Origin: Sphingobacteriia bacterium 24-36-13
GTDB lineage: Bacteria > Bacteroidota > Bacteroidia > Chitinophagales > Chitinophagaceae
NCBI GenBank assembly: GCA_002281875.1
Contig: NCHN01000001.1
Coordinates: forward strand, 62,001-126,000
Reading direction: 5' to 3'
Length of the DNA stretch: 64,000 bases
Made by a program: the position numbers and the translations under genes. Each line of letters starts with the position of its first letter. Positions within the stretch are counted from its first letter, which is position 1. Below, piece by piece: positions 995 through 54,283 of this stretch. The notes under the pieces were generated by a model. It saw only the letters and a program-made list of their open reading frames with translations, was not told where the DNA came from and did no database searches.

Positions 995-1065
995 GGTCCT
1001 GTGGCCGAGTGGCTAGGCAGAGCTCTGCAAAAGCTTCCACAGCGGTTCGAATCCGCTCGGGACCT
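995..1065 (+). tRNA. tRNA-Cys (anticodon GCA)
   Basis: Folds as a cloverleaf: acceptor GGTCCTG pairs with CGGGACC (one T-G pair), D stem GCC/GGC, anticodon stem GAGCT/AGCTT with loop CTGCAAA (anticodon GCA), and T arm AGCGG-TTCGAAT-CCGCT. The discriminator base is T, as expected for tRNA-Cys. CCA is not encoded. Confidence 0.95.
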
Positions 1066-1080
1066 CCGAAGCACAAAAAT

Positions 1081-1121: not shown

Positions 1122-1165
1122 GTAACTTTTGTAACCGTTTCTCCCTAATTGTTTGTGCAACTTTG
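1122..1165 (+). promoter_or_regulatory. Crp/Fnr-type operator plus -7 element, sulfur regulon site 1
   Basis: GTAAC-TTTT-GTAAC (1122-1135) is one base from the palindrome GTAAC-N4-GTTAC. Its centre, 1128.5, lies 29.5 nt before the -7-like CAACTTTG (1158-1165, 5 of 6 consensus bases). This places the operator near -41, the class II activator position, upstream of the TauE/SafE gene at 1183. Confidence 0.7.
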
Positions 1166-1182
1166 TATTCTAAATTTATTCT

Positions 1183-1998
1183 ATGGTAATAATTGGATTT
1201 TTACTTGCGGCATTAGTGGGTATTTCACTTGGCTTAATTGGAAGTGGTGGATCAATATTGACTGTTCCTATTTTAGTATATGTGATGGGCGTTGATCCTG
1301 TTTTGGCCACTGCTTATTCTTTGTTTATAGTAGGGTCAACTGCTTTAGTAGGTGGAGTACAAAGTGCACTCCAAAAAAGAGTTGACTTTAAAACAGTATT
1401 AATTTTTGGGATTCCATCGATTGCTGCTGTATATGCAACTCGTTTGTGGTTGGTTCCATTCATACCTGCTGAAGTAGTTTCCATAGGTGGATTGGTGATT
1501 ACTAAATCAATTGCTTTAATGTTATTATTTGCGGTAGTGATGATACTCGCTTCTGTTAGCATGATTAGGCCTGGGAAAAAATCGGATGCGGATGAATCTG
1601 CACCAATGGTATATAACTATCCTATGATTTTATTAGAAGGAGCAATCGTAGGTGTGCTTACTGGATTGGTGGGAGCGGGTGGTGGATTTTTAATAATTCC
1701 AGCATTGGTAATATTGGCTAAAATGCCTATGAAATTAGCAGTAGGTACTTCTCTCTTTATTATAGCCGCAAAGTCTTTAATTGGTTTTACTGGAGACTTA
1801 CAAGGATCTCAAGTAATTGACTGGAAATTATTATTAACTTTTACTGCTTTTGCAGTAATAGGAATTTTTGGTGGCATAATATTATCTAAGAAAATTCCTG
1901 GTGAAAAATTAAAGAAAGCCTTTGGTTGGTTTGTTTTAATAATGGGAATTTACATCATTGTTAAGGAATTATTTTTTCCTTCTGGAGGTGGGCATTAA
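1183..1998 (+). CDS. Sulfite exporter TauE/SafE family membrane protein
   Basis: A 271-residue polytopic inner-membrane protein with two homologous halves. Each half opens with the family's Gly-rich helix: residues 7-25 with GLIGSGGSILTVP, and about 150-170 with GLVGAGGGFLIIPALV. About eight hydrophobic segments are visible, the usual size for TauE/SafE. Members move sulfite, sulfonates or related sulfur anions across the cytoplasmic membrane. It is the first gene of the sulfur island and has its own operator-controlled promoter. Export of sulfite made by the two persulfide dioxygenase-like enzymes downstream is a reasonable inference; direction and substrate are not shown by the sequence. 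Confidence 0.88.
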   Translation: MVIIGFLLAALVGISLGLIGSGGSILTVPILVYVMGVDPVLATAYSLFIVGSTALVGGVQSALQKRVDFKTVLIFGIPSIAAVYATRLWLVPFIPAEVVSIGGLVITKSIALMLLFAVVMILASVSMIRPGKKSDADESAPMVYNYPMILLEGAIVGVLTGLVGAGGGFLIIPALVILAKMPMKLAVGTSLFIIAAKSLIGFTGDLQGSQVIDWKLLLTFTAFAVIGIFGGIILSKKIPGEKLKKAFGWFVLIMGIYIIVKELFFPSGGGH

Positions 1999-2000
1999 AT

Positions 2001-2044
2001 GCAACAAATGTTACCAAACTACTATTTTAACCAACAGATATTTG
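2001..2044 (+). promoter_or_regulatory. Crp/Fnr-type operator plus -7 element, sulfur regulon site 2
   Basis: GCAAC-AAAT-GTTAC (2001-2014) is one base from GTAAC-N4-GTTAC. Its centre, 2007.5, is 29.5 nt before the -7-like GATATTTG (2037-2044, 5 of 6 bases). It drives the MBL-rhodanese gene at 2081. Confidence 0.7.
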
Positions 2045-2080
2045 TAATATAATTTTAATCAAACTTAAATACGAAACCAT

Positions 2081-3481
2081 ATGTTTTTTCAACACGTTTA
2101 CGACAAGAGTTTAGCACAAGCTAGTTATTTTATTGGGTGTCAAAAAGCAGGTGTTGCTGCCGTTATTGACCCTAAAAGAGATGTGGATACCTATTTGGAA
2201 ATTGCGAAGGCCAATAATATGACTATTACGCATATTTTTGAAACACATATCCATGCCGATTTTTTAGCAGGTTCAAGAGAATTGGCTCAATTAACTGGAG
2301 CTCAATTATACTTATCTGACGAAGGTGGAGAAGGCTGGGAATACGAATTTCCACATGTTGGGTTAAAAGACAACGATATTGTAAAATTGGGAAATCTTAG
2401 TTTTAAGGTATTACACACACCTGGTCATACTCCAGAAAGTATCAGTTTCTTATTAACCGATCACCCCGCTAGCAACGAGCCAGTAATGTTGTTCACAGGC
2501 GACTTCGTTTTTGTAGGCGATATTGGTAGACCAGATTTATTGGAAAAAGCTGCTGGAATGGTAGGTACTCAAGATAAAGGTGCAAAACAAATGTACCAGA
2601 GCATCAAGAAGTTTAATGCATTGGCAGATTATATTCAAGTATGGCCTGGTCATGGTGCAGGATCTGCTTGTGGAAAGGCATTGGGTGCTGTGCCAAGTAC
2701 AACGGTAGGTTATGAGAAAGCGCGTAACTGGGCATTTCAATATCCAACTGATGAGAATGGATTTACAAAGTATTTATTGGCTGATCAACCAGAGCCGCCA
2801 AAATATTTTGCAATGATGAAGAAGTTAAATAAAGTAGACCGTCCTTTATTAACCGAAGTTCCAAAGCTTAAAAAATTATCTATTGATGAAGTGAATTCAA
2901 ATATGGCTAAAGGAGTAAAGCTGTTAGATGCAAGACCTAAAACAGAATTTGCAGCTGGCTTCATTCCAGGTAGTTTAAATATTCAAGGTAATAATTCATT
3001 TGCTACTTGGGCAGGTTGGTTTTTAACTTATGATGAGCCATTCATGATTTTAGCTGACGAGTCGATGTTAGATGATTTAACAAGAAAATTAATGCGAATT
3101 GGTTTAGATAATATTGCAGGTTATTTGCCTTCTGTAGCTGAATATAGCAATGCAGGTGGAACATTGGAGAAGGTTAATTTAGTTGAACTAGCAGAAGCAA
3201 AATCATTAGCAAATGATTCTACTGTTCAGGTTGTTGATTTGCGTGGAGTAGCTGAATTTAATGCTGGTCACCTTAAAGGAGCAGACAATATATTTGTGGG
3301 AACATTGCCTAATAATTTAGACAAAATTAGTAAAGACAAAAAAGTAATGATTCATTGTCAAAGTGGGGATAGAGCTGCAATAGCTTATTCAATCCTTGTA
3401 AAAAATGGATTCAAAAATATTGTTAATTATTCCGGAGGTATGAATGAGTGGTTGAATGCCGGTGAACCGGTTGTAGATTAG
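2081..3481 (+). CDS. MBL-fold persulfide dioxygenase-like protein with two rhodanese domains
   Basis: A 466-residue cytoplasmic enzyme. An N-terminal metallo-beta-lactamase fold (about 1-240) has THIHADF (H56, H58, D60), HTPGHTPES, GDFVFVGDIGRPDL and WPGHGAGSACG, the mononuclear-iron ETHE1-like pattern. Two rhodanese domains follow at about 270-355 and 370-466. The second keeps the catalytic loop CQSGDR; the first has ILADES where the cysteine should be, so it is probably inactive. ETHE1 enzymes oxidise glutathione persulfide to sulfite, and rhodaneses move sulfane sulfur, so a coupled persulfide/thiosulfate role is likely. It has a paralogue at 3997. Transcription ends at the hairpin at 3503-3529. 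Confidence 0.85.
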   Translation: MFFQHVYDKSLAQASYFIGCQKAGVAAVIDPKRDVDTYLEIAKANNMTITHIFETHIHADFLAGSRELAQLTGAQLYLSDEGGEGWEYEFPHVGLKDNDIVKLGNLSFKVLHTPGHTPESISFLLTDHPASNEPVMLFTGDFVFVGDIGRPDLLEKAAGMVGTQDKGAKQMYQSIKKFNALADYIQVWPGHGAGSACGKALGAVPSTTVGYEKARNWAFQYPTDENGFTKYLLADQPEPPKYFAMMKKLNKVDRPLLTEVPKLKKLSIDEVNSNMAKGVKLLDARPKTEFAAGFIPGSLNIQGNNSFATWAGWFLTYDEPFMILADESMLDDLTRKLMRIGLDNIAGYLPSVAEYSNAGGTLEKVNLVELAEAKSLANDSTVQVVDLRGVAEFNAGHLKGADNIFVGTLPNNLDKISKDKKVMIHCQSGDRAAIAYSILVKNGFKNIVNYSGGMNEWLNAGEPVVD

Positions 3482-3502
3482 TGCATACCAAAGATTAATT
3501 AG

Positions 3503-3529
3503 AGCTGCCTCCCCCAGGCAGCTTTTTTT
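3503..3529 (+). terminator. Rho-independent terminator after MBL-rhodanese gene 1
   Basis: Perfect 8-bp stem AGCTGCCT / AGGCAGCT with a CCCCC loop and a run of seven T. Confidence 0.9.
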
Positions 3530-3573
3530 ATGATTATACTCATTTTTTAGCTACTTCTTGTCTTGTAATTTTG
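3530..3573 (+). promoter_or_regulatory. FNR-like operator plus perfect -7 element upstream of YHS lipoprotein gene
   Basis: ATGATTATACTCAT (3530-3543) is a near-perfect inverted repeat (TGAT-N4-CTCA). Its centre, 3536.5, lies exactly 29.5 nt before the perfect -7 element TAATTTTG (3566-3573). It differs at only two bases from the 14-mer in front of the nos operon (62838-62851), not from the GTAAC-type sites of the neighbouring sulfur genes. It abuts the T-run of the preceding terminator. Confidence 0.65.
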
Positions 3574-3592
3574 TAAATATTAAAATAGTAAA

Positions 3593-3907
3593 ATGCAATT
3601 AAAGTCAACTTTATTAGTCTTATTTATTTCATTATTATTTGCATCATGCAAGAATAATGAAACTGATTCAACATCCACATTAACACCTGTAAAACATGGC
3701 TCAACTATGCAGGTTGTTCATTCAGATTCTGCCCCAAAATTCACCCCAGAAATGGTCAGCAATAAAAGAGATTTTATTTGTGGAATGCCAGTGATAGCAG
3801 GTATAGCGGATACCGCACAGTACAATGGTAAAGTGTATGGTTTTTGTGCAACAGAATGCAAAGATGAATTTCTGAAATCTCCTGAAGCATACACTACAAA
3901 AAAATAA
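3593..3907 (+). CDS. YHS-domain lipoprotein (metal-binding)
   Basis: A 104-residue lipoprotein: signal peptide with lipobox LLFASC (lipidated Cys about residue 19), a polar linker, then a YHS domain at about 55-104 with FICGMPV, AQYNGKVYGFCATECKDEF and SPEAY. YHS domains bind heavy metals, often copper, and are related in style to NosL. It lies inside the sulfur island but has its own terminator-isolated promoter with an FNR-like operator of the type that precedes the nos operon in this window. A periplasmic copper-handling role in N2O respiration is therefore an attractive inference. Confidence 0.75.
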   Translation: MQLKSTLLVLFISLLFASCKNNETDSTSTLTPVKHGSTMQVVHSDSAPKFTPEMVSNKRDFICGMPVIAGIADTAQYNGKVYGFCATECKDEFLKSPEAYTTKK

Positions 3908-3925
3908 TTCAGCTAAAGTATATAT

Positions 3926-3969
3926 GTAACTTTTGATACGGTGTGTCAACAGATTGTTTCAGAAATTTA
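3926..3969 (+). promoter_or_regulatory. Crp/Fnr-type operator, sulfur regulon site 3
   Basis: GTAAC-TTTT-GATAC (3926-3939) is one base from GTAAC-N4-GTTAC. The expected -7 position 29.5 nt after the centre holds GAAATTTA (3962-3969), 4 of 6 consensus bases. It precedes the second MBL-rhodanese gene. Confidence 0.6.
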
Positions 3970-3996
3970 CTATATAAATAATACAAAATATTGGTT

Positions 3997-5412
3997 ATGA
4001 AAATAGAGCAAATTTATACTGGATGTTTAGCGCAAGGTGCTTATTATATAGTTTCAAATGGAGAAGCTGCAATTGTTGATCCATTAAGGGAGACTAAGCC
4101 CTACTTAGATCGATTATCAAAAGACAATGTACAACTCAAGTATATTTTTGAAACACATTTTCATGCAGATTTTGTGAGTGGTCATGTAGATTTAAGTCAA
4201 AAGACTGGAGCTCAAATTGTTTATGGCCCTACAGCAAAAGCTGCTTTTGAATGCATTACCGCAAACGATGGCGATTTATTTAAAGTGGGAGATATTACTA
4301 TCAAAGTATTGCATACGCCAGGTCATACCATGGAAAGCAGTACTTTTTTGTTAATTGATGAATCAGGAAAAGAACATTGCATTTTTAGCGGAGATACTTT
4401 GTTTCTTGGAGACGTTGGTCGTCCTGATTTAGCGCAGAAGGCGGCAAATATGACAAAAGAAGAATTGGCTGGAATGTTGTACGAAAGTTTAAAGAATAAA
4501 ATAATGCCTTTAGCGGATGATCTTATTGTTTATCCAGCTCATGGCGCTGGCAGTGCATGTGGTAAAAATATGATGACTGAAACGGTTGACACATTGGGGA
4601 ATCAGAAAAAAGTAAACTACGCTTTAAATCAGCCAAATAAAGAAAGCTTTATTAAATCAGTTACTGATGGGTTATTGCCTCCACCAGGATATTTTGGAAT
4701 GAATGTTGCAATGAATAAACAAGGATATGCTTCATTTGATAAAGTATTAACTGAAGGAACTAAACCTTTATCTGTTAAAGCTTTTGAAGCAGCAGCAGCA
4801 GAAACAGGGGCCCTTATTTTAGATACTAGAGATCCAGACCTTTTTTTCAGAGGCTATATTCCTCAGTCGGTAAATATTGGATTGAATGGTGACTTTGCAC
4901 CTTGGGTAGGTGCTTTAATGGTTGATGTTAATCAACCCATATTGTTAGTTTGCAATGAAGACAAGCAAGAGGAAGCAATTACTAGGTTGAGTAGAATTGG
5001 ATTTGATCATGTGATTGGATTTTTATCAGGCGGATATGAAGCTTGGTTAAATGCAGGTAAACCGGTAGATACAATCGAACGAATTGATGTAAAGTTGTTT
5101 GAAGAAAATTACGACCCAATAACAGACCAAGTAATTGATATTAGAAGAGAATCAGAATTTGCAGCTGAGCATATAGAAAATGCATACAATAAACCATTGT
5201 CTTACATTAATGATTGGATAAAAGAGATTGATCCAAAGCAACATTTTTTTATGCATTGTGCAGGTGGATACAGAAGCATGATTGCAGCTAGTATATTACA
5301 AGCAAGAGGGTATAGAAACTTTACAGAAATTGCTGGCGGGTACAAGGCAATTCTAGAAACAGCTATTCCGAGAACTGATTTTGTTTGTCCTTCAAAACTT
5401 ATGAAAATTTAA
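3997..5412 (+). CDS. MBL-fold persulfide dioxygenase-like protein with two rhodanese domains (paralogue 2)
   Basis: 471 residues from the ATG at 3997; a TTG two codons upstream is possible but less likely. The MBL domain has THFHADF, HTPGHTMESS, GDTLFLGDVGRPDL and YPAHGAGSACGK. Rhodanese domain 1 keeps a cysteine in LLVCNEDK; domain 2 has the active loop CAGGYRS. Domain order matches the paralogue at 2081, but the sequences are clearly diverged, so this looks like an old duplication with possible division of labour on persulfide, thiosulfate or thioredoxin-bound sulfur. Gene order continues into OsmC five bases later, so the two are probably co-transcribed. Confidence 0.85.
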   Translation: MKIEQIYTGCLAQGAYYIVSNGEAAIVDPLRETKPYLDRLSKDNVQLKYIFETHFHADFVSGHVDLSQKTGAQIVYGPTAKAAFECITANDGDLFKVGDITIKVLHTPGHTMESSTFLLIDESGKEHCIFSGDTLFLGDVGRPDLAQKAANMTKEELAGMLYESLKNKIMPLADDLIVYPAHGAGSACGKNMMTETVDTLGNQKKVNYALNQPNKESFIKSVTDGLLPPPGYFGMNVAMNKQGYASFDKVLTEGTKPLSVKAFEAAAAETGALILDTRDPDLFFRGYIPQSVNIGLNGDFAPWVGALMVDVNQPILLVCNEDKQEEAITRLSRIGFDHVIGFLSGGYEAWLNAGKPVDTIERIDVKLFEENYDPITDQVIDIRRESEFAAEHIENAYNKPLSYINDWIKEIDPKQHFFMHCAGGYRSMIAASILQARGYRNFTEIAGGYKAILETAIPRTDFVCPSKLMKI

Positions 5413-5417
5413 TCATT

Positions 5418-5861
5418 ATGAATAACGCACATCATTACGAAGTTGATTTGGTTTGGACAAGTGATAGAAAAGGAACAATTAGTTCACCCGTATTAAATAG
5501 TTCAATTGAAGTGGCTACTCCACCAGAGTTTCCAAAAGGAATTCCAGGAATATGGTCACCAGAGCATTTATTGGTAGCCGCAGTCAATTCTTGTTATATG
5601 ACTACTTTTTTAGCCATAGCTGAGAATTTTAAATTAGCGTTTGAATCGCTTGATTGTAAAGCAGTAGGATTATTAGAGCAGCCTGAAGGTAAGTACCTAA
5701 TAACCACAGTACTTTTAAAGCCAGTTTTGGTAATAAATGATGAGCACAATGCAGAAAAGGCAATGCGTGTATTAGAAAAAACAGAAAAAGCCTGTTTGAT
5801 ATCTAATTCAATCAAAGCAACCATAAAATTAGATGCAGTTGTAAAAGTTTCACACAATTAA
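5418..5861 (+). CDS. OsmC/Ohr family protein
   Basis: 147 residues from the ATG at 5418, five bases after the preceding stop. A longer TTG-start frame from 5385 would overlap the upstream gene and is less likely. The family pattern is visible: PGIWSPEHLLVAAVNSCYMTTFL carries the first catalytic Cys (about residue 59), and KACLISNSIKATI holds the second Cys near the C-terminus. OsmC/Ohr proteins reduce hydroperoxides with a Cys pair and in several bacteria respond to reactive sulfur species. Placement directly behind a persulfide dioxygenase-like gene fits removal of organic or sulfur peroxides. Confidence 0.85.
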   Translation: MNNAHHYEVDLVWTSDRKGTISSPVLNSSIEVATPPEFPKGIPGIWSPEHLLVAAVNSCYMTTFLAIAENFKLAFESLDCKAVGLLEQPEGKYLITTVLLKPVLVINDEHNAEKAMRVLEKTEKACLISNSIKATIKLDAVVKVSHN

Positions 5862-5875
5862 TCAATGCTGTAGCG

Positions 5876-6313
5876 ATGGATAAGTCCTTTGCTTATATAC
5901 TAGTTTTGATCCAATTTTCTTTAATTGGTTGGTTGCTGCAGTCGGCCTATCCATTCAATTTAAATATAAATGGTCTTATTCTTGCTTCGGTTGCGATTGT
6001 GCTAGGTTCATGGTCATTATGGGTAATGCGCATTAGTAAAATTCGAATTTTACCCATGCCACATTTAGAAGCAGCGTTAATAACCAGTGGCCCGTACCGT
6101 TTATTGAGGCATCCAATGTACACGGCTGTATTGTTATTTACTGCAGGGATTAGTATAGATCATCCTAATTGGGAAAAGATAATTATATGGCTTATATTAT
6201 TGATTGTGTTAATAATTAAGCTTCATTGGGAAGAACGTATGCTGAATCAACAATTTCCTGAGTACCATTTTTATCAGCAAAAATCATTCAGACTAGTTCC
6301 TTACTTATATTGA
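5876..6313 (+). CDS. Isoprenylcysteine carboxyl methyltransferase (ICMT)-like membrane protein
   Basis: 145 residues with about four membrane segments and the C-terminal ICMT/PEMT signature: SGPYRLLRHPMYTAVLL at about 76-92 (SAM-binding RHPxY motif) and HWEERMLNQQFPEY at about 121-134. Bacterial members are integral-membrane methyltransferases, some acting on isoprenoid or sulfur substrates; this one's substrate is unknown. It follows OsmC by 14 nt and is probably the last gene of the operon starting at 3997. Confidence 0.75.
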   Translation: MDKSFAYILVLIQFSLIGWLLQSAYPFNLNINGLILASVAIVLGSWSLWVMRISKIRILPMPHLEAALITSGPYRLLRHPMYTAVLLFTAGISIDHPNWEKIIIWLILLIVLIIKLHWEERMLNQQFPEYHFYQQKSFRLVPYLY

Positions 6314-6323
6314 CTTTGTTTGC

Positions 6324-6367
6324 GTAACTTTTGTTACAAATGCGAGCATATTTTAATTCTACCTTGC
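6324..6367 (+). promoter_or_regulatory. Crp/Fnr-type operator, sulfur regulon site 4
   Basis: Perfect palindrome GTAAC-TTTT-GTTAC (6324-6337). Its centre, 6330.5, is 29.5 nt before the degenerate -7 element TACCTTGC (6360-6367, 4 of 6 bases). It precedes the MFS gene at 6384, leaving a leader of roughly 10 nt. Confidence 0.72.
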
Positions 6368-6383
6368 TATCTGTTAGCCAAAT

Positions 6384-7616
6384 ATGCAAGGACTAAAAGA
6401 AAATAAAACCCAGTTTCTATTATTGGTATTGGTCAATGCCTTTGTAGGAGCAATGGTTGGTATGGAGCGATCAATTTTACCTGAATTTGGCAAAACCATA
6501 TTCTCTTTATCAGCAGCATCTGCATTAACTAGTTTTATTGTAGCTTTTGGAATCAGTAAGGCAATAAGCAATTATGCAGTAGGAATTTTATCTCGAAAAT
6601 TTACCCGCAAACAAATATTAGTGACTGGTTGGTTATTGGCATCTCCTGTGCCATTTATTTTGATGTACGCCAATCATTGGAACTGGATTATAGTTGCAAA
6701 TATATTTTTAGGAATAAGCCAAGGGCTTACATGGAGCACTACTGTAGTGATGAAAATAGATTTAGTGGGCAGTAAGAATAGGGGTTTAGCAATGGGAATT
6801 AATGAATTTGCTGGTTACTTATCTGTAGGTTTGGCCGCTTATCTTTCTGCACAAATAGCTTCGAAATTTGGATATGCATTTTATCCTTTTATTCCAGGCT
6901 TATTTTTTGTTTTAGCAGGATTAGTAATTTCACTTTTTTGGGTAAATGATACAGCTCCATTTATTCAAAGGGAGACAACACAAAGTAATATTCCTTTACT
7001 TAAAAATATTTGGGCTTCCACCAGCTGGGAACACCGAAATTTAGGTTCGGTAACTTTAAATGGGTTGGTGAATAATTTAAATGATGGAGTAATGTGGGGA
7101 TTGGTTCCTTTGCTTTTAGTACAAAGATCTTTTAGTATTGCAGAAGTAGGTATTGTAGCTGGCATTTATCCAATGGTCTGGGGCATTTCTCAATTGTTTA
7201 CAGGTAAAATGGGAGATCTTTTTTGTAAAAAACAATTGATAACCTCAGGTATGTTATTGCAAGCTTTGGCAATTGTTCTATTAGTGCTTTTTTCATCTTT
7301 TGCTGGCGCGATTATAGCAGCCGTTTTACTGGGCTTAGGAACAGGGTTGGTTTACCCCAATTTTTTAACTGTAGTTGCTGAAAATGCTCACCCCACCCAA
7401 AGGGCTGAAATAATGGGTGTGTTTAGATTTTGGAGGGATGGAGGATATGTAATAGGGGCTTTGCTGAGTGGATTTCTTGCAGACTGGATGGGTTTGAATT
7501 GGGCTTTGTACTCAGTTGCAGCTATAACGGCTGGAGCAGGTATCGTTGCAAATATTAGAATGTGCTGTACGTTAAAACTGTTTTGGCGATCACAGGAGTG
7601 TATGCCAGCTGTGTAA
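6384..7616 (+). CDS. MFS transporter
   Basis: A 410-residue major facilitator protein with about 12 hydrophobic helices, the helix 2-3 loop motif GILSRKFTRKQ (about 66-76) and its second-half counterpart GKMGDLFCKKQ (about 275-285). The substrate is not identifiable. It has its own sulfur-type operator, so it is likely to move a sulfur compound or a metabolite linked to sulfur oxidation. The last residues (CCTLKLFWRSQECMPAV) are Cys-containing and hydrophilic. The stop codon lies inside the palindrome of the next operator. Confidence 0.82.
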   Translation: MQGLKENKTQFLLLVLVNAFVGAMVGMERSILPEFGKTIFSLSAASALTSFIVAFGISKAISNYAVGILSRKFTRKQILVTGWLLASPVPFILMYANHWNWIIVANIFLGISQGLTWSTTVVMKIDLVGSKNRGLAMGINEFAGYLSVGLAAYLSAQIASKFGYAFYPFIPGLFFVLAGLVISLFWVNDTAPFIQRETTQSNIPLLKNIWASTSWEHRNLGSVTLNGLVNNLNDGVMWGLVPLLLVQRSFSIAEVGIVAGIYPMVWGISQLFTGKMGDLFCKKQLITSGMLLQALAIVLLVLFSSFAGAIIAAVLLGLGTGLVYPNFLTVVAENAHPTQRAEIMGVFRFWRDGGYVIGALLSGFLADWMGLNWALYSVAAITAGAGIVANIRMCCTLKLFWRSQECMPAV

Positions 7617-7656
7617 CCTTTGTTACCAATTTGCCCGTTTAGCTATTCTACATTTG
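7613..7656 (+). promoter_or_regulatory. Crp/Fnr-type operator plus perfect -7 element, sulfur regulon site 5
   Basis: Perfect palindrome GTAAC-CTTT-GTTAC (7613-7626), overlapping the MFS stop codon. Its centre, 7619.5, is 29.5 nt before the perfect -7 element TACATTTG (7649-7656). This is the only clear promoter before the long run of same-strand genes from 7680 to 15442, so it probably drives the whole thiosulfate operon including the Crp/Fnr gene. Confidence 0.78.
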
Positions 7657-7679: not shown

Positions 7680-7919
7680 ATGAAGGAAGTATTGTTTAAC
7701 AATTGGAGTTTTATGCGCATTGTACGCTTATTAGCAGGAATGGCCATTATTATTCAAGCAATTGCTAATAAGGATGCGGTATTTGGAGTGGCAGGTTTTT
7801 TATTCACGATTATGGCCCTTTTTAATACGGGTTGTTGCGGAACAGGAGGATGTTATACACCAGTAAAAAAGACAACTAAAACAACAGAGGAGATCAGTTA
7901 TGAAGAAGTGGTTAAATAA
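7680..7919 (+). CDS. Small DUF2892-like membrane protein
   Basis: 79 residues from the ATG at 7680; an upstream in-frame TTG at 7620 would place the start before the promoter and is rejected. Two hydrophobic segments (about 12-28 and 32-50) are followed by a Cys-rich stretch, NTGCCGTGGCYTP, and a charged tail. It resembles the DUF2892/YgaP-type membrane domain often found beside rhodaneses. Its end overlaps the next gene by 20 bases, suggesting translational coupling. The Cys cluster may carry or sense sulfane sulfur; this is inference. Confidence 0.65.
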   Translation: MKEVLFNNWSFMRIVRLLAGMAIIIQAIANKDAVFGVAGFLFTIMALFNTGCCGTGGCYTPVKKTTKTTEEISYEEVVK

Positions 7920-8115
7920 TAATAAGCTTTACTTGATAGGGTCTTTATTAGGCGCTATTGGAGGATATATTTATTGGCAACAAATTGGTTGCGATTCAGG
8001 AACATGTGCTATTACATCAAAGCCACTAAATAGTACACTATATGGTGCAATGATGGGAGCTTTACTACTGGGTATCTTTAAAAAAGAAGAAAAAACAAAA
8101 ACGGCTAATCAATAA
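7900..8115 (+). CDS. Small DUF6132-like membrane protein
   Basis: 71 residues with two membrane helices (about 9-27 and 45-61) flanking a loop with two cysteines, GCDSGTCAI, and a Lys-rich C-terminus. It looks like the small DUF6132 family of Bacteroidota. It overlaps the preceding DUF2892-like gene and precedes thioredoxin by 12 nt. No enzymatic motif is present; the two extracytoplasmic Cys could form a disulfide or accept sulfur. Confidence 0.6.
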   Translation: MKKWLNNNKLYLIGSLLGAIGGYIYWQQIGCDSGTCAITSKPLNSTLYGAMMGALLLGIFKKEEKTKTANQ

Positions 8116-10594: not shown

Positions 10595-11668
10595 ATGGAA
10601 CTCAATAATACCAACAATAAAGAGCAAAGTTTAATTAAAATGATTCAGCGAATGCTGAACTTGATTATTGTTCTAGTAACATTTATTGTATTGTTGCCAT
10701 TGATCATTTACAATGCAGAAACCATAAAAAATTGGTTTAAGCCAAACAATCAAAAAGCAATAACACCTGAATTCCCAGTGTCAAAGCCTGCGAAGGGAAA
10801 TATGGTTGAAACAACAGCGGCATACTGGCAACCAGCTGCAATGGATGCAGTAACTGACCCTCAATTAAAGGAGCAGGTTTACTATGGCAGAGAATTAATT
10901 GCACATACTGCAAAGTATTTAGGACCTAATGGATCAGTATTGCAAATCACCAATGGTCAAAATTGTCAAAACTGTCATTTACAAGCAGGTACAATGGCAT
11001 TCGGAAATAATTATGGTTCGGTTGCTGCTACCTATCCTAAGTTTAGAGCAAGAAGCGGTACTTCGGAAAATATTTATAAAAGGGTTAATGATTGTTTTGA
11101 ACGGAGTTTAAACGGAAAAGCATTAGACACAGCAAGCAAAGAAATGCTTGCTATTGTAGCTTATATTAATCATATTGGATCAAATGTTCCAAAGGGCGAG
11201 AAGGCAGAGGGTGCTGGTTTAAAAGATTTGGCTTTTTTAGATAGGGCTGCAGATCCCAAAACTGGTAAAATAGTTTATGAAACCAAATGTCAGAGTTGTC
11301 ACCAAGCGAATGGCGAAGGGGTGTTAAATCCAGATAAAATTGAGTATAGTTTTCCGCCGCTTTGGGGTAAACATAGCTTCAATGACGGAGCTGGGCTTTA
11401 TCGAATTACCAACTTCGCAAAGTATATTAAATACAATATGCCATTGGGTGTAACGCATGAAAATCCGCAGTTAACAGACGAAGAGGCTTGGGATGTATCG
11501 GCTTATGTGTTAGCGCAATCACGTCCTCATATTGCAGTACCCAAAGACTGGCCCGATATATCTAAAAAACCAATTGACCATCCATTTGGTCCATACGCAG
11601 ATCCCTTTTCAGAAAAACAACATAAATACGGTCCTTTTAAACCTATTGCTGAAAAAGCAAAAAAATAA
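10595..11668 (+). CDS. Dihaem c-type cytochrome, thiosulfate dehydrogenase (TsdA)-like
   Basis: 357 residues. An N-terminal membrane anchor (about 21-40) precedes two cytochrome c domains with haem sites CQNCH (C124, C127, H128) and CQSCH (C232, C235, H236). The segment RVNDCFERSLNG places a Cys at 167, matching the Cys axial haem ligand region of TsdA. KYNMPLGV and VLAQSRP supply the Met/Lys-type ligand region of the second domain. TsdA joins two thiosulfates into tetrathionate in the periplasm. It sits between the thiosulfate importer and the SoxB-like gene, which supports a thiosulfate substrate. Confidence 0.8.
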   Translation: MELNNTNNKEQSLIKMIQRMLNLIIVLVTFIVLLPLIIYNAETIKNWFKPNNQKAITPEFPVSKPAKGNMVETTAAYWQPAAMDAVTDPQLKEQVYYGRELIAHTAKYLGPNGSVLQITNGQNCQNCHLQAGTMAFGNNYGSVAATYPKFRARSGTSENIYKRVNDCFERSLNGKALDTASKEMLAIVAYINHIGSNVPKGEKAEGAGLKDLAFLDRAADPKTGKIVYETKCQSCHQANGEGVLNPDKIEYSFPPLWGKHSFNDGAGLYRITNFAKYIKYNMPLGVTHENPQLTDEEAWDVSAYVLAQSRPHIAVPKDWPDISKKPIDHPFGPYADPFSEKQHKYGPFKPIAEKAKK

Positions 11669-11673
11669 TTCCT

Positions 11674-13365
11674 ATGTCTAATAATAGAAGAAAATTCATA
11701 CAACAAATAAGTGCTTTGGGTGGAGTTGGATTGGTTTCGGCAGCTGGGATTAATGAAGTAGCTGCATCAGTGGGCCATCAAGAAAATGCTGATTTTATTG
11801 ATGCAGACGGAGTAACAACGTTGACAATATTACAAACTACTGATGTTCATTGTCAGGTTCATCCACATGATGAATTATTTTGGGAGAATGGGAAAGCGGT
11901 ATTTAGAAAGACGGGCGGGTACGCACATTTAGCTACTTACTTAGCGAAAGAAAAAAAACAACATCCAAACAGTTTTTTAATTGATACAGGAGATATGTTT
12001 CAAGGCAGTGAGTTGTCGGTTAAAACATTAGGCAAAGCAATGGTTCCCATTTTAAATGCTTTAAACTACGACTTGTATTTGCCGGGTAATTGGGAAGTAA
12101 TTTATTATAAAAAAGCGATGCAAACTTTATTAGGAGCTTTACATGCTCCCAAAGTTTGTGCTAATATGTACCACGATTTGGGCCAGGGTAAAAAAGGCGA
12201 ATTAATATTCCCTCCTTATCATATTTGGCATTCTAATGGAATCAAAATTGGTTTTATTGGTTACACAGATCCATTGGTACCATTGAGACAATCACCCAAT
12301 TACAGTAAGGGAATCATCTATACAAAGCCAGAGGAAAATTTAGCGCATTACGTGGATGTACTAAGAAACCAGGAGCAATGTGCGGCGGTTATGGTGATTG
12401 CCCATTTAGGATTATCTCAACAATTGCATTTAGCCAATCAACCTGAATGTGAAGGGGTTGATTATATTTTAGGTGGTGATACACATGAACGTGTTAGAAA
12501 ACCTATTGTATGTAAATACGCAAAAGTGGTAGAACCAGGGGCATTTGGTTCTTTTGTTGGAAAGTTACAATTGAGTTTTAAAGATGGAAAATTAGTAAAT
12601 GATGAATATCATTTGGATGAAGTAAATGCTTCTGTTTACAAAGCCGATAAAAATTTGGCTGCATTAATTAGTCAATATGAGCAACCATTTGCCAATCAAA
12701 TTTATAAAGTAGCTGGGTATAGTACCATTCCTTTGTATCGATATTTTGTAGTAGAGAATCCCATTGATACAATGATCCTAAATGCATTGAAATGGAAATT
12801 ACCTGAAACGGATATTGTATTGTCAAATGGATTCCGTTTTTGCCCACCAAGAACAACCCCCGATTCAACAGGCAATATTCCAATTACGGAAGGATTTATT
12901 TTTGATATGCTCCCTGTAGATAGCACTGTTAGAACAGGCGCAGTAACCGGAAAGCAATTATTCGATTGGTTAGAAAAAGAAATGAATAATGTATTTGCAA
13001 AAGATGCTGTAGAAAGGTTTGGAGGTTGGGTTATCAAGTTTAAGGGGATGACCGTAAAATTTGAGGCATTTGCAGAAAAGGGAAAGCGTGTTAAAGAAGT
13101 TAAAGTAGGTAACCAGCTTTTAGACCTCAATAAAACCTATACCATTTGCGCTTGTGAAAGAGATGGTGACCCTGAAGATATGTTGTGCAGAATTCGAAAT
13201 GTTCAGCAGCCAAAAAACACACCTTACACTTTACATAGTACAATGTTAGATTATTTGAAAAATAATTCACCAGTTACGCCAACACCTGAAAGGAATGCAA
13301 TTATTCTTGATGGTCCACAAGACTTGTTAACCCAAGTAACTGGTGTAGACTATGTGTTTCGTTAA
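11674..13365 (+). CDS. SoxB-like thiosulfohydrolase / 5'-nucleotidase family metallophosphatase
   Basis: 563 residues. The N-terminus NNRRKFIQQ followed by a hydrophobic stretch is a twin-arginine signal, implying a folded periplasmic metalloenzyme. Metal ligands: TTDVHCQVHPHD (D57, H59), DTGDMFQGS (D104), LPGNWE (about 137-141), IAHLGLS and GGDTHERV. The GNW in place of GNH is closer to SoxB (GHW) than to 5'-nucleotidases. A C-terminal 5'-nucleotidase domain completes the fold. SoxB cleaves sulfate from SoxYZ-bound sulfur, but no SoxYZ, SoxAX or SoxCD is encoded here, so the carrier or substrate must differ or lie elsewhere. Confidence 0.8.
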   Translation: MSNNRRKFIQQISALGGVGLVSAAGINEVAASVGHQENADFIDADGVTTLTILQTTDVHCQVHPHDELFWENGKAVFRKTGGYAHLATYLAKEKKQHPNSFLIDTGDMFQGSELSVKTLGKAMVPILNALNYDLYLPGNWEVIYYKKAMQTLLGALHAPKVCANMYHDLGQGKKGELIFPPYHIWHSNGIKIGFIGYTDPLVPLRQSPNYSKGIIYTKPEENLAHYVDVLRNQEQCAAVMVIAHLGLSQQLHLANQPECEGVDYILGGDTHERVRKPIVCKYAKVVEPGAFGSFVGKLQLSFKDGKLVNDEYHLDEVNASVYKADKNLAALISQYEQPFANQIYKVAGYSTIPLYRYFVVENPIDTMILNALKWKLPETDIVLSNGFRFCPPRTTPDSTGNIPITEGFIFDMLPVDSTVRTGAVTGKQLFDWLEKEMNNVFAKDAVERFGGWVIKFKGMTVKFEAFAEKGKRVKEVKVGNQLLDLNKTYTICACERDGDPEDMLCRIRNVQQPKNTPYTLHSTMLDYLKNNSPVTPTPERNAIILDGPQDLLTQVTGVDYVFR

Positions 13366-14809: not shown

Positions 14810-15442
14810 ATGAATAAAAATGTCACGCCATTTGATGCAATATTTGAACCAGCTTTGGTTACAGAAATGTACCAGTTTGGTGAAGTAAGGCAGTTTAAGG
14901 AGGGGGATTTAATTATGGATTACGGAAAGTATATCCGATATATGCCATTGATTTTAAAAGGTACTATCAAAGTTTTGCGAAAAGATGAAAATGGCAAAGA
15001 ACTATTGTTGTACTATTTGTCTAGTAATGAAAGCTGTTCCATGGCCTACAGTTGCTGTGTAGAAGCAAAAAAAAGCGAGGTAAAAGCCATTGCTGAGGAA
15101 GACGTTGAGTTGCTGGCCATTCCTCATATTAAGTTAGAAGAGTGGTTGTGTAAATATCCAAGCTGGAAAAATTATATCATGCGCAGTTTTAATGAACGGT
15201 TCTTAGAATTGCTGAAGAATATTGAATCAATTGCGTTTCACAAATTAGATGAGCGCTTGATTGCTTACCTGCGCGATAAAAAGCAAGTGACAGGTTCCAG
15301 TGTTATCAAAGCCTCCCATTATTTAATTGCCGATGAATTGGCTACATCTAGAGTGGTTATTTCGAGATTGTTAAAGCAATTAGAGAATGATGGTCGCATC
15401 TTATTGTACAGAAATGAGATTAAATTGCTGAAAGACTTTTAA
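14810..15442 (+). CDS. Crp/Fnr family transcriptional regulator, likely sulfur-island regulator
   Basis: 210 residues: cyclic-nucleotide-binding-like jelly roll (about 20-120), long dimer helix, and C-terminal winged helix with recognition region ELATSRVVISRLLKQLENDG (about 174-193). It carries a Cys cluster, ESCSMAYSCC (C76, C82, C83), in the sensor domain. There is no N-terminal FNR iron-sulfur Cys set. It begins two bases after the porin stop, as the last gene of the operon driven by the promoter at 7613-7656, so positive autoregulation is possible. It is the best candidate to bind the GTAAC-N4-GTTAC palindromes. The Cys cluster could sense sulfane sulfur, although similar Cys pairs seem common in Bacteroidota relatives. 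Confidence 0.85.
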   Translation: MNKNVTPFDAIFEPALVTEMYQFGEVRQFKEGDLIMDYGKYIRYMPLILKGTIKVLRKDENGKELLLYYLSSNESCSMAYSCCVEAKKSEVKAIAEEDVELLAIPHIKLEEWLCKYPSWKNYIMRSFNERFLELLKNIESIAFHKLDERLIAYLRDKKQVTGSSVIKASHYLIADELATSRVVISRLLKQLENDGRILLYRNEIKLLKDF

Positions 15443-15468: not shown

Positions 15469-15864
15469 ATGAAATATTCTCAAACCATTGGATTTATAGC
15501 TGTTATATTGGCCATTTTGGTATGTTTTATGCCGTTGGTTTACATTGAAAGTAAAAGTTTAACCATCACTGGTTTTAAAGCAGAAGGAACTCGATTTGGA
15601 AGGCCAGGAATGTTTATTGTTTATATGGGGAGTATAGCCGCCCTTCTATTTTTGATTCCCAAAATTTGGGCTAAAAGGGTAAATGTTTTTTTGACTGCCA
15701 TGGTTTTTGCATGGGCAGTAAGAAATTATTTACTTCTTACTACTTGTTCTGCAGGTGAATGTCCGAAAAAACAAATAGGATTATTTCTCCTACTTGCTTT
15801 CTCGGCTATTACGATGGTCATGTCTTTCTTACCTAAGATAGATCTTTCAAAGAAGCAGCAATAA
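15469..15864 (+). CDS. Small hypothetical membrane protein
   Basis: 131 residues with about four hydrophobic segments (about 5-24, 44-62, 68-86, 101-118) and no recognised motif. It contains [11 protein letters not shown] between helices 3 and 4. It has its own perfect -7 element. The last 32 bases overlap the 3' end of the convergent rocD gene. No function can be assigned. Confidence 0.7.
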
Positions 15865-53689: not shown

Positions 53690-54283
53690 ATGAACATTGA
53701 AGTCGACACGTTACTAGCTTATGGTGCCACGTCCAAAAAATGGATAAAGGGAGAACAGATTTTTACGCAAGGAAATGAAGCTAGGTATTATCATCAGATT
53801 GCGGAAGGATCTGTGAAAATGATAACTTCTGCTAATTTATCTAAAGAGTTTATCCAGGGCCTTTTTTTTAAGGGTAATAGTTTTGGGGAGCCTGCATTAA
53901 TGATTGGGAAACCTTATCCAGCAAGTGCATATGCAGAAACCGACTCACTCATTTATCGGTTATCGAAAGAGAAATTTTTAATACTTCTGGAGGATCACCC
54001 ATCTTACTATAAAAATTTATTTTTAATTTTCGCCGAGCGGCTTTACTGTAAGACCCTTACAGCAAATATTTTAATGAATAATTCTCCTGAAGAAAAAATT
54101 ATTGGGTTATTGGAGAAACTAAAAATAGAGAAGAAGCTGAACGAACAAGGATTGGTTCCATATACACGACAGCAAATCGCTGATTTTACAGGATTAAGAG
54201 TAGAAACTGTGATAAGAACGCTTGCTAAACTGGTAGAAAAGAGGCAAGTAGTAATTATTAACCATAAAGTATTTTATTTATGA
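53690..54283 (+). CDS. Crp/Fnr family transcriptional regulator, likely nos regulator
   Basis: 197 residues: effector-binding jelly roll (about 15-120, EQIFTQGNEARYYHQIAEGSVKM), dimer helix, and a winged helix with recognition sequence YTRQQIADFTGLRVETVIRTLAKLVEKRQV (about 160-189). The recognition helix contains the R-x-E-T-V-x-R pattern of FNR/DNR-type proteins that bind TTGAT-N4-ATCAA-like sites. No N-terminal Cys set for an iron-sulfur cluster is visible, so haem or another sensor mode is more likely. It is next to the nos cluster and overlaps the following membrane gene by four bases. Confidence 0.85.
   Translation: MNIEVDTLLAYGATSKKWIKGEQIFTQGNEARYYHQIAEGSVKMITSANLSKEFIQGLFFKGNSFGEPALMIGKPYPASAYAETDSLIYRLSKEKFLILLEDHPSYYKNLFLIFAERLYCKTLTANILMNNSPEEKIIGLLEKLKIEKKLNEQGLVPYTRQQIADFTGLRVETVIRTLAKLVEKRQVVIINHKVFYL

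Follow-up and report, generated by a model that had tools for sequence, protein, structure and literature searches.

Five copies of the palindrome GTAAC-N4-GTTAC, here called P1 to P5, lie in front of sulfur-related genes in a 64,000-nucleotide stretch of the genome of Sphingobacteriia bacterium 24-36-13 (hereafter the window), and a Crp/Fnr gene lies further along the same strand (Table 1). The question is whether these palindromes are operators of a single regulon and whether the Crp/Fnr protein (the 14810 protein) is its regulator. We hold with good confidence that P1 to P5 are operators of the 14810 protein acting as a class II activator, and that the regulon handles sulfur species. This reading rests on what is observed, namely the sites, their spacing, their conservation, their covariation with residue 182 of the regulator and the families of the target genes.

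Table 1. Candidate operators, -7 boxes and genes of the sulfur island; mismatches of the boxes are counted against TAnnTTTG.
Feature	Position in window	Strand	Remarks
P1 candidate operator GTAACTTTTGTAAC	1122..1135	+	1 mismatch; upstream of TauE/SafE exporter gene
P1 -7 box CAACTTTG	1158-1165	+	1 mismatch
Sulfite exporter TauE/SafE family	1183..1998	+	P1 target; PF01925 141.4 bits (cut-off 32.6)
P2 candidate operator GCAACAAATGTTAC	2001..2014	+	1 mismatch
P2 -7 box GATATTTG	2037-2044	+	1 mismatch
Metallo-beta-lactamase fold + rhodanese domains	2081..3481	+	P2 target; PF00753, PF00581 above cut-off
P3 candidate operator GTAACTTTTGATAC	3926..3939	+	1 mismatch
P3 -7 box GAAATTTA	3962-3969	+	weak; 2 mismatches
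Second metallo-beta-lactamase fold + rhodanese protein	3997..5412	+	P3 target
OsmC-like gene	5418		downstream of 3997..5412 gene
Methyltransferase-like gene	5876		after OsmC-like gene
P4 candidate operator GTAACTTTTGTTAC	6324..6337	+	0 mismatches
P4 -7 box TACCTTGC	6360-6367	+	weak; 2 mismatches
MFS transporter	6384..7616	+	P4 target; PF07690
P5 candidate operator GTAACCTTTGTTAC	7613..7626	+	0 mismatches; overlaps MFS gene end
P5 -7 box TACATTTG	7649-7656	+	0 mismatches
Presumed operon from P5	7680..14807	+	co-transcription predicted
79-aa membrane protein			P5 operon; no Pfam match; presumably DUF2892
DUF6132 protein	7900-8115		P5 operon
Thioredoxin, rhodanese, Usp, two Sulf_transp (YeeE-like) proteins			P5 operon
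Cytochrome c with SoxA/TsdA domain, OprD-like porin			P5 operon
SoxB-like hydrolase	11674-13365		P5 operon
Crp/Fnr regulator (crp)	14810..15442	+	C76, C82, C83; recognition helix SRVVISR (V182)
131-aa gene	15469..15864	+	starts 26 nt after crp; possibly last of operon; no Pfam match

A sequence-only reading of the window had listed five palindromes with at most one mismatch, each centred 29.5 nt upstream of the first base of a -7-like octamer, and we found all five in place at that distance. The -7 boxes of P3 and P4 must be considered weak because each has two mismatches to TAnnTTTG, and the first two bases of the box are GA in two of the five promoters and CA in one, not TA. When offsets from 19.5 to 38.5 were scanned, the best octamer lay at 29.5 for four of the five sites, P4 tying with 23.5. 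The whole window holds 8 palindrome matches with no more than one mismatch, five of them being P1 to P5, against 1.21 expected, and none of 100 shuffles reached 8.

It could be argued that a frequent palindrome simply happened to fall in five promoters, and the bare motif is indeed common: the 3.07 Mb genome has 97 sites with at most one mismatch, six of them exact, including two in the island. Random scatter of the motif over the genome, named earlier as refuting the idea, is thus true of the palindrome taken alone but not of the palindrome at its spacing, which is far less common. Allowing two mismatches in total, the palindrome with a -7 box at 29.5 was found at 8 genome sites, four of them in the island; P3 needs three mismatches and is one of 37 sites at that level. 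Three two-mismatch sites of the same genome (C1:102902, C40:47251, and C89:33092) were set aside as lying inside or across open reading frames.

The spacing was also recovered in loci around related regulators with valine at residue 182 (V-type, as opposed to E-type with glutamate). Among 1024 five-base palindromes at 31 offsets upstream of perfect TAnnTTTG boxes in 85 V-type loci, the top count of 75 belonged to GTAAC at 29.5 (runner-up 8), and a site at 29.5 with at most 1+1 mismatches was present in 63/88 V-type loci 9 kb or longer versus 1-8/88 at eight other offsets, both samples including near-identical loci. A similar palindrome upstream of the gene next to a Thiothrix homologue has a 3-nt spacer and was left out of the locus count. 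With two mismatches allowed in the -7 box, 66/88 loci had a site at 29.5 and 13-25/88 at the control offsets, so that single weak sites of the P3 and P4 kind prove little. Among loci of at least 9 kb, no site was found in 25/88 of the V-type and 24/51 of the E-type. In 100 whole genomes we counted 83 sites (18 exact) at the 29.5 spacing versus 13, all inexact, when the spacing was shortened by 3 nt. This spacing-dependent enrichment in loci and whole genomes, together with the conservation in relatives, makes chance a negligible explanation.

In four close genomes, all 80 operator and -7 positions of P1 to P4 and of a TolC promoter (50/50 half-site and 30/30 -7 positions) were invariant versus 36/110 spacer positions, a count that is partly circular because the relatives' sites were located using the motif. 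The half-sites and -7 core of the weak P3 were likewise invariant across the four genomes. Comparing P1 to P4 of the window with the more distant locus L047 alone, 40/40 half-site and 24/24 -7 positions were identical, against 42/88 in the spacer. P5 was excluded from the four-genome sum because its spacing moves by one base in two genomes; its operator was conserved at 10/10 positions, its -7 box at 3/6 and its spacer at 3/22. Orthologous islands thus keep motif and spacing as anticipated, the exception being the P5 orthologue, which lies at 30.5 in two close relatives, so that the spacing is not absolutely fixed.

The 14810 protein belongs to the Crp/Fnr superfamily (PF00027 38.7 bits, cut-off 27.5; PF13545 32.6 bits, cut-off 27). 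It is neither an NtcA, the cyanobacterial nitrogen regulator of the same family (TIGR03697 42.8 bits, cut-off 244.95), nor a cAMP-CRP (NF008732 43.3 bits, cut-off 266), and it appears to have no recognisable cAMP site. In the 155 regulators of its family, C76, S89, R181, S185 and R186 are present in 155/155, and position 182 holds V in 96 of them and E in the other 59.

Several lines of evidence connect this family to the palindrome. Sites with motif and spacing were found in 25/34 genomes that encode a close 14810 orthologue versus 9/43 genomes lacking one; in six of these nine the site belongs to one near-identical promoter-like stretch that precedes an ABC-transporter gene, and in another it is inside a coding frame. 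Two site-bearing stretches are conserved, one (three genomes) in a long frame and the other (seven genomes) promoter-like. When repeated operator sequences were skipped, Val182 paired with GTAA-N6-TTAC (92 vs 3) and Glu182 with GTGA-N6-TCAC (42 vs 1). Four loci encode both regulator types, and A-type sites occur in all four and G-type sites in two. The exceptions are one E-type locus (L135), whose sites are GTAAC, and three V-type loci that each have a single GTGA site. A tree was made of the 78/155 loci whose operator class is clear, and on it the V/E label switches just three times; the operator follows the switch on average in 1.9 of the 2 independent pairs on well-supported branches, too few for a sign test. 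Regulator and operator do covary in these sequences, though over only two to three independent switches.

The operator core of CRP is TGTGA-N6-TCACA, and the E-type relatives have the same operator. E. coli CRP E181V mutants reportedly have a changed operator specificity, and in the family studied here a Val in place of Glu comes with an A:T pair in place of G:C at the corresponding half-site position. The 14810 protein would thus read GTAA instead of the GTGA of CRP because it has Val in place of CRP Glu181. FNR-like TTGAT/TTGAC operators were also looked for in three E-type islands and nothing consistent was found. A one-residue change in the helix accompanies a one-base-pair change in the operator, which ties the 14810 family to the GTAAC operator. 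The Crp/Fnr gene might still be a mere neighbour, another regulator binding the palindrome: two more Crp/Fnr proteins of the genome score above the family cut-off, and the promoter-like match before the ABC-transporter gene recurs in six genomes where no close orthologue was found. However, neither paralogue has a V-type helix (TSTESCIR and LRVETVIR), sites are commoner where the 14810 family is present, and operator base and residue 182 change together, which makes another regulator very improbable. We infer that the 14810 protein binds the palindromes, and the earlier proposal of regulon, regulator and operator as one set is supported by co-occurrence and covariation.

A dimer of the 14810 protein would sit on the palindrome with its centre near -41.5 relative to the transcription start, replacing the -33 element, and would activate in the class II manner by contacting RNA polymerase at a sometimes weak -7 box. 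The constant 29.5 nt agrees with the class II geometry proposed earlier, although the value near -41 is deduced from the -7 box and not from a mapped start. The layout is that of an NtcA class II promoter (GTAN8TAC about 22 nt before TAN3T), the core GTA-N8-TAC is common to NtcA and island sites, and NtcA aligns with a Val at the equivalent recognition-helix position. At ilvG, PMC3898017 places the NtcA site near -41.5 with a gap of 22 nt to the -10 box, the same gap as in the island. The 14810 protein differs from NtcA by its pocket-region cysteines, by its sulfur targets, by a Bacteroidetes -7 box and by a host of another phylum.

Repression is also open to a dimer that covers the -35 region, and PMC3898017 reports some promoters as repressed by NtcA, but the NtcA repressor sites named there are downstream of the -35 box. 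The constant class II spacing, the weak -7 boxes of P3 and P4 and a spacer poor in information where the -33 element would be also argue against a repressor or dual regulator, which we regard as quite unlikely, whereas activation is highly probable. P5 would drive the presumed operon that includes the regulator, so that the regulator would make more of itself; such autoregulation most probably occurs. The sequence-only reading had crp closing this operon; the gene is inside it but not clearly at its end, because a same-strand gene starts 26 nt downstream.

The activated regulon would handle sulfide, persulfide, thiosulfate and sulfite. The product of the P2 target appears persulfide-dioxygenase-like; the SoxB-like hydrolase reached 237.2 bits, against a curated cut-off of 550, and is not called SoxB. 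Of the sites, 117/221 (226 rows minus identical 44-mers) lie upstream of homologues of island genes; choosing loci around the regulator gene tilts such counts towards sulfur neighbours. For 54 distinct sites found by motif only, 19 precede island-gene homologues, 27 other genes and 8 no open reading frame. A tRNA-Cys gene is located at 995-1067; its 3' end is not repeated within the window, and a tRNA-bounded mobile island was rejected.

Concerning the signal, FNR, the iron-sulfur protein, has an N-terminal cysteine cluster, and an FNR-type cluster was ruled out since the first Cys of the 14810 protein is at position 76. Judged by alignment, its C76, C82 and C83 seem to lie in the pocket region, which sets it apart from E. 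coli CRP of the same superfamily. C76 occurs with C82 or C83 in 152/155 family members, three lacking both of the latter. In sulfane-sulfur sensors, two reactive cysteines form a polysulfide bridge, and the pattern is compatible with such a sensor; an invariant cysteine with a near-invariant pair suggests a sulfur-sensing family. The likely signal would be sulfane sulfur (or sulfide) reacting with Cys76 and Cys82/83 in what was once the pocket for cyclic nucleotides, to which we give about an even chance.

The signal could instead be redox state, oxygen, NO or a small ligand, the sulfur genes being one part of a respiratory regulon. Clustered cysteines could bind metal or form a disulfide, and the further targets include cytochrome bd, peroxiredoxin, TolC, SulP, DUF983 and fatty-acid-hydroxylase genes besides SQR-like ones. 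But dioxygenase-rhodanese (44/221) and TauE (27/221) outnumber every other target class, and in Acinetobacter baumannii sulfide induces cytochrome bd too, according to PMC7315123; we find a non-sulfur signal rather unlikely. The 14810 regulator probably turns on the handling of sulfide and persulfide.

These targets overlap with those of FisR, BigR and CstR of other phyla (persulfide dioxygenase, SQR, TauE, YeeE/YedE). CstR is a CsoR-type repressor. FisR is a sigma-54 activator and BigR an ArsR-family repressor, and none of the three is described as a Crp/Fnr protein in the accessible part of PMC7315123. Our literature search found no described regulator of sulfide and persulfide genes in Bacteroidota. 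We tentatively propose, at slightly less than even confidence, that the family is a counterpart of these regulators across several orders of Bacteroidota, a Crp/Fnr activator that uses an invariant Cys and a neighbouring pair to sense sulfane sulfur or sulfide, and in which a natural switch of the CRP-specificity residue was followed by the operators. The outcome is a single candidate regulator with a single operator at a set distance and a list of targets, all accessible to testing in a strain that grows in culture. The Val/Glu covariation mirrors in nature the classical protein-DNA specificity experiment and makes operators predictable from one residue.

The best match to the family profile among solved structures is the Crp/Fnr protein 3dv8 (2.3e-32), which we take to be from Eubacterium rectale and for which we know of no described function. 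It differs by its phylum and its E-type helix (HREVITR), and two of its cysteines align with C76 and C82.

The five palindromes that the sequence-only reading had placed before sulfur-island genes were recovered, as was their constant 29.5 nt from palindrome centre to a -7-like octamer (see table). These octamers resemble the Bacteroidetes -7 consensus, TAnnTTTG, published in the available text of PMC7366714.

Candidate operators and neighbouring features (window positions unless stated; mismatches to GTAACNNNNGTTAC)
Feature	Position	Mismatches	-7 octamer (likened to TAnnTTTG)	Octamer start past operator centre	Remark
P1	1122 (+)	1	CAACTTTG	29.5 nt
P2	2001 (+)	1	GATATTTG	29.5 nt
P3	3926 (+)	1	GAAATTTA	29.5 nt
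P4	6324 (+)	0	TACCTTGC	29.5 nt
P5	7613 (+)	0	TACATTTG	29.5 nt	presumed driver of the regulator operon
TolC-like gene promoter	G000:C57:13575-13618 (L077, own genome)		TACTTTTG	29.5 nt	operator GTTACATATGTTAC
Regulator	14810..15442 (+)				Crp/Fnr, Val182
Second Crp/Fnr gene	54098-54250				different recognition helix (LRVETVIR)
tRNA-Cys	995-1067				adjoins the island upstream
Cytochrome c with SoxA/TsdA domain (Pfam) and adjacent SoxB-like hydrolase	10595-13365				hydrolase far under the SoxB cut-off

The expectation that this motif would not be scattered over the genome failed for the palindrome alone, which occurs 97 times with at most one mismatch in 3.07 Mb (6 exact), but stood for the composite site: with a correctly placed -7 box, 37 sites remained at up to three mismatches and only 8 at up to two. 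The sulfur island holds four of these eight (P3 has three mismatches), and another, C57:13575, is intergenic and lies upstream of a TolC-like outer membrane protein gene; a homologue of this protein (L113) belongs to the OEP family.

To score spacing and sequence together, each of the 1024 possible five-base inverted repeats (4-nt spacer, at most one mismatch) was counted at 31 distances upstream of an exact TAnnTTTG in 85 loci around regulators with Val at residue 182 of the recognition helix (V-type; 69 and 16 loci from two collections). GTAAC at 29.5 came out on top with a count of 75, followed by GTGAC (8), GTTAC (7) and ATGAT (6), every one at 29.5. Allowing 1 + 1 mismatches at most, 63 of the 88 V-type loci that span 9 kb or more had a site at 29.5 vs 1-8/88 at eight other offsets; relaxing the -7 box to two mismatches gave 66/88 vs 13-25/88.

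Conservation was assessed for P1-P4 in the window and three relatives (L046-L048) and for the TolC promoter in L077, L225, L227 and L243, four genomes each. Half-site positions were invariant in 50/50 cases and -7 positions in 30/30 vs 36/110 for the spacer, the operator and -7 box of the TolC promoter being unchanged throughout. L046 is a near relative of the window; against L047 only, P1-P4 gave 40/40, 24/24 and 42/88, respectively. These counts are partly circular because the relatives' sites were located using the motif, a concern that does not touch the position of all five sites upstream of orthologous genes. The predicted conservation in orthologous islands held for P1-P4 in both motif and spacing, but P5 was left out of the sum because its operator, invariant at 10/10 half-site positions, lies 30.5 nt ahead of a perfect -7 box in L047 and L048; one additional base therefore seems tolerated.

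Across 100 related genomes, the motif with its spacing (at most one mismatch) yielded 83 sites in 44 genomes, 18 of them exact, vs 13 sites in 11 genomes and none exact when the spacing was shortened by 3 nt. Where a genome encoded a close orthologue of the regulator (E < 1e-43), sites occurred in 25/34 cases, compared with 10/23 where the orthologue was more remote (1e-43 to 1e-30) and 9/43 where there was none (Fisher p 7e-6 for co-occurrence, kinship among genomes ignored). Six of these last nine share an almost identical promoter-like stretch upstream of an ABC-transporter gene, carrying GTAAAATTAGTTAC at the 29.5 spacing; it was found in seven small genomes (L238, G020, G030, G042, G051, G053 and G058), six of them without a detected close orthologue. 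Of the other three, one has its site inside a coding frame, another (G035) encodes a fragment of the regulator where a contig ends, and the site in G023 fits none of these explanations.

In CRP, Glu181 contacts the G:C pair of TGTGA, and Val at that position favours A:T. Orthologues of the regulator carry Val or, in some cases, Glu (E-type) at residue 182. We compared 161 loci, 96 with just V-type regulators, 59 with just E-type ones, 4 with both and 2 whose type was unread, counting sites at the 29.5 offset whose outer half-sites were perfect and whose -7 box had no more than one mismatch. GTAA..TTAC, GTGA..TCAC and hybrid sites numbered 92, 3 and 10 in V loci vs 1, 42 and 5 in E loci (Fisher p 1e-30, kinship ignored), and 2, 0 and 0 in unread loci; the expected class was represented by one or more sites in 48/96 V and 27/59 E loci. 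L135, with an E-type regulator beside GTAAC operators, is an exception. On a tree built from the 78 loci whose operator class was clear, the helix label changed three times, and two V/E pairs were independent on well-supported branches (three counting all branches); the operator followed the label in a mean of 1.9/2 pairs and never the opposite, numbers too small for significance. The four loci with both regulator types (L180, L181, L182 and L338) contained 7, 2 and 2 sites of the three classes, A-type sites being present in 4/4 and G-type sites in 2/4.

The 221 distinct sites from all loci lay upstream of window-gene homologues in 117 cases (dioxygenase-rhodanese 44, TauE 27, rhodanese 12, 79-aa membrane protein 11, YeeE 10, DUF6132 5, regulator 5, Usp 2, thioredoxin 1), of other genes in 88 and of no ORF in 16. 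The other families, assigned from one representative per cluster, included TolC (17), DUF983 (8), cytochrome/Tll0287 (6), SulP (6), cytochrome bd (5), fatty-acid hydroxylase (5) and peroxiredoxin (4), together with an SQR-model family (7) and SorA-like sulfite dehydrogenase (2) that both score below cut-off. Regulator-centred choice of loci enriches for sulfur neighbours; the 54 distinct sites picked via the motif alone (L215-L267) preceded island homologues in 19 cases, other genes in 27 and no ORF in 8. The target families from all loci overlap with the FisR/BigR genes and the sulfide-induced genes of A. baumannii, as far as the available text of PMC7315123 describes it.

Regarding the signal, C76 and S89 are present in 155/155 regulators, C82 in 97% and C83 in 96%, and two cysteines of the nearest solved structure, 3dv8, align with C76 and C82. 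Our best guess for the sensing mode is a sulfane-sulfur switch. By alignment, NtcA likewise carries Val at the equivalent of position 182. The promoter layout is also that of NtcA, which, in the available text of PMC3898017, recognizes GTAN8TAC centred near -41.5 and, for ilvG as an example, lies 22 nt from the -10 box. Curated-model scores ruled out that the regulator is itself NtcA or CRP. No description of such a regulon was found in the openly available literature searched.

The closest named record among the matches listed is a Sediminibacterium MAG (regulator 98% identical), and the names available on 80 of at least 579 loci include Chitinophagaceae, Sphingobacteriaceae, Saprospiraceae, Flavobacteriaceae and Spirosoma. 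Within the window's order, 212/298 genomes searched encode a relative (E <= 1e-35, V- and E-type pooled). In Thiothrix subterranea, a sulfur bacterium, a plasmid encodes an E-type homologue (28.5% identical), and the next gene is annotated DUF2892. No second copy of the tRNA-Cys 3' end was found elsewhere within the 64-kb window. A contig labelled Bifidobacterium breve (L125) encodes a regulator 67% identical to that of the window and is probably a mislabelled MAG.
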